Assembly: GCF_008831545.1 (NCBI RefSeq)
Contig: NZ_CP044523.1
Coordinates: 2,108,001 to 2,172,000 of the forward strand
Reading direction: 5' to 3'
DNA: 64,000 nucleotides
From: Halorussus halophilus
GTDB lineage: Archaea > Halobacteriota > Halobacteria > Halobacteriales > Haladaptataceae
The notes beneath the pieces are model-generated. The model searched no databases. It saw nothing but the letters and a program-made list of their open reading frames with translations, and had not been told where the DNA came from. The translations under genes and the position numbers were made by a program. Below, one piece after another: positions 56,566-57,059 of this stretch. Within the stretch, counting starts at the first letter, position 1; every line of letters starts with the position of its first letter.

Positions 56566-56640
56566 AGCGGGATGGGATAGCCAGGAGATTCCGGCGGGCT
56601 CATAACCCGCAGATCGGTAGTTCAAATCTACCTCCCGCTA
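56566..56640 (+). tRNA. Initiator tRNA-Met (anticodon CAU)
   Basis: A 75-base tRNA. The acceptor stem AGCGGGA pairs with TCCCGCT, giving the A1:U72 pair typical of archaeal initiators, with discriminator A. The anticodon stem ends in three G-C pairs (GGG-CTCATAA-CCC), another initiator hallmark. T-arm GGTAG-TTCAAAT-CTACC. No CCA and no intron. A T5 run directly follows (56641-56645). Confidence 0.96.
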
Positions 56641-56795
56641 TTTTTCAGAAATCAACCGACGAGAACCGAGTGTAACGAGGTTCGAGGAGCGGATTTCTGA
56701 AAATCTCTAGAGAGGATTTGAACCCAGCAAGTCGCACGCCCGCGGAACAGGATGAGCAGGGACGTCTTGCTCAGGTTCAAATCTACCTCCCGCTA
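56641..56795. repeat. tRNA-iMet-derived tandem unit 1
   Basis: This 155-base unit ends with an exact copy of the tRNA 3' end, TTCAAATCTACCTCCCGCTA (56776-56795; the tRNA copy is 56621-56640). It has a perfect 12-base stem (56642-56653 with 56692-56703), a short palindrome TCTCTAGAGA (56704-56713), and a second stem whose outer part GATTTGAACC (56715-56724) pairs with GGTTCAAATC (56774-56783) and inner part AGCAAG (56726-56731) with CTTGCT (56766-56771). The T-arm copy thus forms one side of the second stem. Confidence 0.85.
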
Positions 56796-56942
56796 CTTCG
56801 TTCGGAATTCAATTCGTGAGTGAGGAGCGTAGCGACGAGCGAACGCTGAATTCCGGAGAATAGTTCGAGCAGATTTGAATGAGGCAGGACGCGCGCAGCG
56901 AAGCGAGCACGTCCTGACGTGGTTCAAATCTACCTCCCGCTA
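56796..56942. repeat. tRNA-iMet-derived tandem unit 2
   Basis: This 147-base unit also ends in the 20-base tRNA tail TTCAAATCTACCTCCCGCTA (56923-56942). It has a 9-base stem CGGAATTCA/TGAATTCCG (56803-56811 with 56847-56855), and a second stem whose outer part AGATTTGAA (56871-56879) pairs with TTCAAATCT (56923-56931) and inner part CAGGACG (56885-56891) with CGTCCTG (56910-56916). Loops contain GAGTGAGGAGCG and GCAGCGAAGCGAGC. Its sequence differs from unit 1, but the architecture is the same. TATGTTTTTG follows (56941-56950). Confidence 0.85.
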
Positions 56943-57059
56943 TGTTTTTGCTGGACTCACTTCACTAACGAGGCGTTTCATCGCCGAGTCAACGCGAACC
57001 GTTCTCCGGCGAGTCGTACCCCTGCGCGTAGTTTTATTGAAATTCGTACGGTACTACCG

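Follow-up and report, generated by a model that had tools for sequence, protein, structure and literature searches.

Why does the 3' end of the initiator transfer RNA (tRNA-iMet) gene of the archaeon Halorussus halophilus recur twice directly behind the gene itself? The locus lies in a 64,000-nucleotide stretch of contig NZ_CP044523.1 (positions 2,108,001 to 2,172,000, forward strand), here called the window, whose own numbering is used throughout. Across the 4.45-Mb genome the 20-base tail TTCAAATCTACCTCCCGCTA has three copies, at 56621-56640, 56776-56795 and 56923-56942, with none elsewhere at up to two mismatches, and these three exact 20-mers are packed in 322 bases. The triplication reported by the first-pass annotation, which was made from the letters of the window, was thereby confirmed. 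The two units between the tails are members of a family of hairpin cassettes anchored to tRNA genes and spread across the haloarchaeal class. Our favoured explanation, held with roughly even confidence, is that these cassettes are mobilised or recombined at tRNA 3' ends.

A cassette of this family measures about 100-160 bases and reads in the order T, F, x, F', T', y, T, in which T is the tRNA tail or its copy, F and F' are the arms of a first hairpin x, T' is the reverse complement of the T-arm of the cassette's own tRNA, and y is a core hairpin. At the tRNA-iMet gene this layout is resolved as follows.

56566 to 56640, forward strand: tRNA-iMet gene (ARAGORN and Rfam RF00005, 58.5 bits), whose final 20 bases, 56621 to 56640, are tail copy 1.
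56641 to 56795, forward strand: unit 1 (F-x-F'-T'-y-T), delimited by tail copies 1 and 2.
56642 to 56703, forward strand: hairpin x of unit 1, with arms 56642-56653 and 56692-56703 forming a perfect 12-bp inverted repeat (12/12 complementary; z -3.3).
56710 to 56724, forward strand: T' of unit 1, the reverse complement of the tRNA T-arm, which pairs with tail copy 2 (fold and permutation test).
56726 to 56771, forward strand: core y of unit 1 (covariance model R1, 47 bits, E 1.5e-11 in the genome).
56776 to 56795, forward strand: tail copy 2, exact (20/20).
56796 to 56942, forward strand: unit 2 (F-x-F'-T'-y-T), delimited by tail copies 2 and 3.
56803 to 56855, forward strand: hairpin x of unit 2, with arms CGGAATTCA at 56803-56811 and TGAATTCCG at 56847-56855 (z -2.8).
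56867 to 56880, forward strand: T' of unit 2 (fold; z -4.7 for T'-y-T).
56883 to 56918, forward strand: diverged core y of unit 2 (R1, 22.5 bits, E 2e-4 over 0.3 Mb).
56923 to 56942, forward strand: tail copy 3, exact (20/20).
56946 to 57015, forward strand: remnant of a third unit, a decayed x hairpin without T'-y-T, which aligns to x of the unit behind tRNA-iMet in the relative G021 (L024).

The two-stem build that had been proposed for each unit holds, since an x inverted repeat is followed in both by a stem between T' and the tail copy, and all four hairpins beat dinucleotide shuffles in folding (z -3.3, -3.0, -2.8 and -4.7). T' contains GGATTTGAACC at 56714-56724 in unit 1 and AGATTTGAAT at 56871-56880 in unit 2, each the reverse complement of the tail copy. 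Pairing of the copies with T' runs across the T-loop, and no T-arm fold is therefore predicted for them. That the stretches separating the tails are unrelated, as had been assumed, proved wrong: both y cores match the single model R1, whose training set did not include the y of unit 1 word for word but did include its relatives. Units 1 and 2 thus each combine an R1 y core, a T' and a copy of the upstream tRNA's tail, the combination by which we delimit the family. In two relatives (G008 and G009; L011, L012) the initiator tRNA gene is duplicated in tandem with its copies 180-281 bases apart, and in G008 (L011/L012) a decayed unit lies behind each of the two copies.

The same build recurs at other tRNA genes of this genome. 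Among the 45 tRNA genes of Halorussus halophilus, counted as Rfam matches and each scanned for its own tail over 1 kb downstream, about 14 are followed by own-tail units, and the tail copy in each unit is that of its own tRNA. Copies with 0-2 mismatches over 21 nt were found behind tRNA-Lys(TTT), Ala(GGC), Val(GAC), Glu(TTC), Ser(TGA), Arg(GCG), which has two units, and Arg(TCG), and decayed forms behind tRNA-Val(CAC), Tyr, Pro(TGG), Thr(CGT), Ala(CGC) and Arg(CCG). The y cores are common to different tRNAs, and the inter-tail sequence is therefore not unrelated. The main y type reads AGTCGCAYGCCCG...GGAACGTCT; a second type, GGAAGAGGCAGTCTCGCC...GGAAGCGTCTTC, occurs behind tRNA-Lys, Thr and Ser (L035, L039, L069) and lies outside the coverage of R1.

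Beyond this genome, an exact y-core pattern searched among 84,980 prokaryote species returned 46 loci, all in haloarchaeal records and most of them downstream of varied tRNA genes. At E ≤ 0.01, R1 detected the y core in 250 of 292 Halobacteria genomes and in 69 of 77 genera; because R1 covers the main y type only, the family as a whole is at least this prevalent, while the R1 counts also include y copies that do not belong to tRNA units. Among 197 genomes sampled at phylum level, three from outside Halobacteria had matches, all of them marginal (E 3e-4 to 6e-3), which is about chance level. A tRNA gene lies within 1 kb upstream on the same strand of 94 of 137 distinct y cores, a proportion biased upward by loci that were partly fetched for their tRNA tails, and 87 of those 94 have a tail copy. 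Among the best class-level loci, fetched by R1 alone, 27 of 29 have a same-strand tRNA upstream. About 28 isoacceptors are represented among the tRNA-linked y cores; pair and unit counts, here and below, are uncorrected for phylogeny.

The probability that the tail was merely duplicated by chance in this one genome is negligible. Such an event is hard to square with three exact 20-mers so close together and absent elsewhere, and it is refuted by the own-tail units at other tRNA genes, the class-wide R1 matches and the tRNA-linked cores. The first-pass annotation had named random, unstructured sequence in all relatives, together with a lack of transcript or cleavage, as the outcome that would leave only such a duplication; comparison revealed units in relatives, in variable number. 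Its preference for selection or a repeated mechanism over a single simple duplication is strongly supported, given that units of the same design, with compensatory change, lie behind many tRNA genes throughout Halobacteria.

Some y cores have no tRNA and are embedded in longer dispersed repeats, flanked for example by GGGACTCAAAGGGGC...GGGGCTTTGG (L237-L249 in genomes G177, G137, G053, G064 and G215; L091, L098, L099, L110, L113, L121, L123-L125 and L127), and Halorussus halophilus itself has such copies (L194, L196, L200, L202). Several genomes contain many near-identical dispersed copies, identical cores occupy several sites within one genome, and in one large genus most of the R1 matches looked at were non-tRNA copies. 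Plasmid CP031304.1 of Natrinema thermotolerans (L259) carries a tRNA-Glu gene that ARAGORN missed and that appears to be interrupted, with one unit behind it; a plasmid-borne tRNA with its unit is a possible transfer vehicle.

The cassettes are under constraint to stay paired. Over 26 y-core sequences, 100% of cells were paired at ten pairs, five of which had changes on both sides, and the covariation score was 0.394 as compared with 0.103 ± 0.019 for shuffled sequences and at most 0.06 for slid partners. This score was taken on the core with named pairs; loop-length variation defeated RNAalifold on a MAFFT whole-unit alignment. The unpaired positions of y are conserved as well, namely CAYG opposite AA (or AC), one U.U and one C.A or C.C mismatch. 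The outer arms of x vary widely among units and still fit their own partners, with a pairing score of 18.7 versus 11.9 ± 0.4 for the arms of other units. Inspection by eye had suggested a conserved tandem GA/GA motif in x, which was discarded when a count across units showed that it was not general. In the orthologous tRNA-Leu(GAG) units of G095 and G294, 101 of 103 insert positions are identical; including the tail there are three differences, two of which fall on opposite sides of a single T'.tail base pair.

The T' and tail arms are specific to the tRNA upstream. A complement to the T-loop is present in 83 of 102 units versus 5% by chance, and the stem portion of T' is a better fit to its own tRNA than to others, with none of 20,000 permutations of 32 distinct tails scoring as high; this test was anchored at the T-loop complement, and an unanchored whole-insert version lacked power. 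The ten acceptor-side bases of the tail copy, which played no part in finding the copies, show 88% identity to the own tRNA versus 40% to other tRNAs. Pairing alone is insufficient for this identity because some acceptor-side bases lie outside the T' helix, and these bases look copied or kept identical.

Copy number is variable, with arrays ranging from 0 to 5 units. Behind tRNA-Arg(GCG), 1-6 tails were counted across 28 relatives, including a five-unit A-B-B-A'-C array with identical tails, and arrays commonly end in a truncated unit. At tRNA-Leu(GAG), G294 has one whole unit more than G095, and the tRNA, the orthologous unit and the flank past the last tail correspond. In G013, which has no unit at tRNA-Arg, the sequence after the tRNA matches that following the last, partial tail of G021 (119/129), and more poorly that right behind the tRNA in G021 (82/107). 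Units are therefore gained and lost as wholes, with tails as their bounds. Whole-unit changes from tail to tail, like the near-identical units inside one array, would also be expected from a passive origin, in which replication slippage or unequal exchange between 20-bp tails multiplied the units and quasi-palindrome correction kept their arms complementary, with neither enzyme nor function. The mismatches of the F.F' helix are consistent with that, with G.T and A.C roughly equal (22 versus 28). However, such a process does not explain one y core behind some 28 isoacceptors and in 69 genera, nor the conserved unpaired bases of y, and we consider it improbable as the whole account.

Tail-bounded repeats could alternatively be a series of att sites left by integrative elements targeting tRNA 3' ends, one of three roles suggested at first. 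The att sites of tyrosine integrases within archaeal tRNA genes (SNJ2, SSV and others; PMC8371274) do resemble the units in having the tRNA 3' end as a direct repeat. In contrast to these, what separates the repeats in the haloarchaeal units is 100-160 bp of conserved hairpins, with neither an integrase nor an element of kilobase scale, and the units possess an inverted third copy, T', which has no place in an att series. The tail was not found in any archaeal virus: in IMG/VR viral contigs the tRNA-iMet tail occurred only inside phage-encoded tRNA-Met genes, with no attP match. A unit query against phage records gave no match, and a plasmid search with one Arg unit as query gave partial matches only. 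Because the y core is shared behind different tRNAs, this explanation is largely refuted, and we regard it as very unlikely. The role that came closest among the three was a palindromic element using tRNA ends.

In the favoured explanation, y and x would be hairpins that a trans-acting factor recognises, and cassettes would land and recombine at the 3' end of the tRNA. Insertion, shuffling, tandem multiplication and loss of cassettes would all take place at the tails with the tRNA left intact, and the tail copy would keep T' paired with the copy rather than with the tRNA. REP/BIME and integron attC elements are likewise short imperfect hairpins recognised by a trans-acting enzyme, with cassette-like arrays; REPs are not tRNA-specific, and attC cassettes usually carry genes. 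REP/BIME palindromes are dispersed, as some of the y copies are. By analogy rather than membership, the cassettes may have a REP-like or integron-cassette-like lifestyle. A bolder and rather doubtful version is a tRNA-programmed mobile hairpin system, in which the x/y core, recognised by a putative haloarchaeal enzyme or ribonucleoprotein, would move between tRNA genes, take the new tRNA 3' end as T' and terminal tail, and so be re-addressed to the host gene.

Several points weigh against mobilisation at tRNA ends. The analysis identified neither an enzyme that would mobilise the cassettes nor an excised form or a fresh insertion, and no search was made for a REP-type partner, the Y1 transposase RAYT; slippage or homologous recombination between tails could by itself produce the gain and loss; y always has a single orientation relative to the tRNA; and mobilisation does not account for the way in which T' and T gain their tRNA specificity. 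On the tRNA-sense strand, G.U exceeds A.C by 10 to 2 in the curated y columns, a weak and phylogenetically non-independent excess that hints at RNA or at single-stranded DNA of that strand. No such strand bias is seen in the F.F' and T'.T helices, as the F.F' counts above illustrate. An automatic strand count had given a large A.C excess in y, and in x also; the count for y was dropped as mostly one conserved C.A mismatch recurring in homologous units.

The serious rival, to which we give a real though minority share of probability, is a functional trailer RNA. The cassette would be cotranscribed with the tRNA, cut at the tRNA 3' end and act as a small RNA or a regulator of tRNA maturation, with T' switching between the tRNA 3' half and the tail copy and y binding a protein. 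The cassettes always lie downstream and on the tRNA strand, conserved unpaired bases sit within a covarying hairpin, and the G.U excess in y points the same way. Moreover, in whole-length folds T' at times pairs with the tRNA tail in place of the copy, and the change in the tRNA-Leu(GAG) unit is compensatory between T' and tail. A further precedent is RtT of E. coli, a tail-bearing repeat behind a tRNA that is annotated as a small RNA. On the other side, units at the same tRNA are patchy among species, with 0 to 5 copies and many decayed, y copies exist without a tRNA, and a T-rich stretch right after the tRNA may, judging from its composition, end transcription ahead of the unit. A mobile repeat accounts better than an essential RNA for the patchiness, the decay, the tRNA-free y copies and the recurrence of identical cores within one genome.

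RtT (RF00391; rttR/tpr) at E. coli tyrT/tyrV is similar to the cassettes in consisting of tandem repeats behind a tRNA gene, with a 178-bp spacing, and in having the 3' end of the tRNA copied at the end of each repeat. In E. coli K-12 (L262, 1286550-1288300), a 10-base complement of the tRNA-Tyr tail, GGGGAAGGAT, lies upstream and forms a hairpin with the tail copy; one RtT copy sits between tyrT and tyrV. The haloarchaeal units, too, are repeats behind a tRNA gene that contain its 3' end. RtT differs in being a single locus of near-identical repeats with another core, in which no F-x-F' hairpin was seen. The RtT covariance model scored the E. coli repeats at 133-138 bits and found no match at E 0.5-1 in L077, L152, L024, L217 and other haloarchaeal loci searched, and the likeness is therefore one of plan, not membership. 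Mitochondrial RHE/DHE elements (PMC2800124) are also short, double-hairpin, non-coding, repetitive and potentially mobile, whereas they are mitochondrial, are not tied to a tRNA whose 3' end is copied and have no known shared sequence. Rfam 15 has no family over the units checked, only the upstream tRNA, and a Chlorobi-1 match of 15 bits against a cut-off of 50 was dismissed as chance. No earlier description of the haloarchaeal cassettes appeared in the literature searched, which leaves out most subscription journals, and their novelty is provisional.

If most members of an archaeal class carry a conserved structured element behind many of their tRNA genes, this would be a sizeable unannotated feature of well-sequenced genomes. 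Its combination of own-tRNA arms and a shared core poses the question of how a repeat acquires a tRNA-specific address. The isolated RtT repeats of E. coli gain a widespread counterpart with natural copy-number variation, through which the role of tail-bearing tRNA repeats becomes testable.

Two minor variants were observed at tRNA-Arg genes. At the tRNA-Arg(GCG) locus (L137, L146-L150, L154 and others), a 66-bp module ending in 13 tail bases lies between full units and carries its own complement, CCTGACG. Besides the normal tRNA-Arg(TCG) (L051), an odd 86-nt tRNA-Arg(TCG)-like gene has units of its own (L083, L084), and a similar odd tRNA with units is present in Halorussus amylolyticus.
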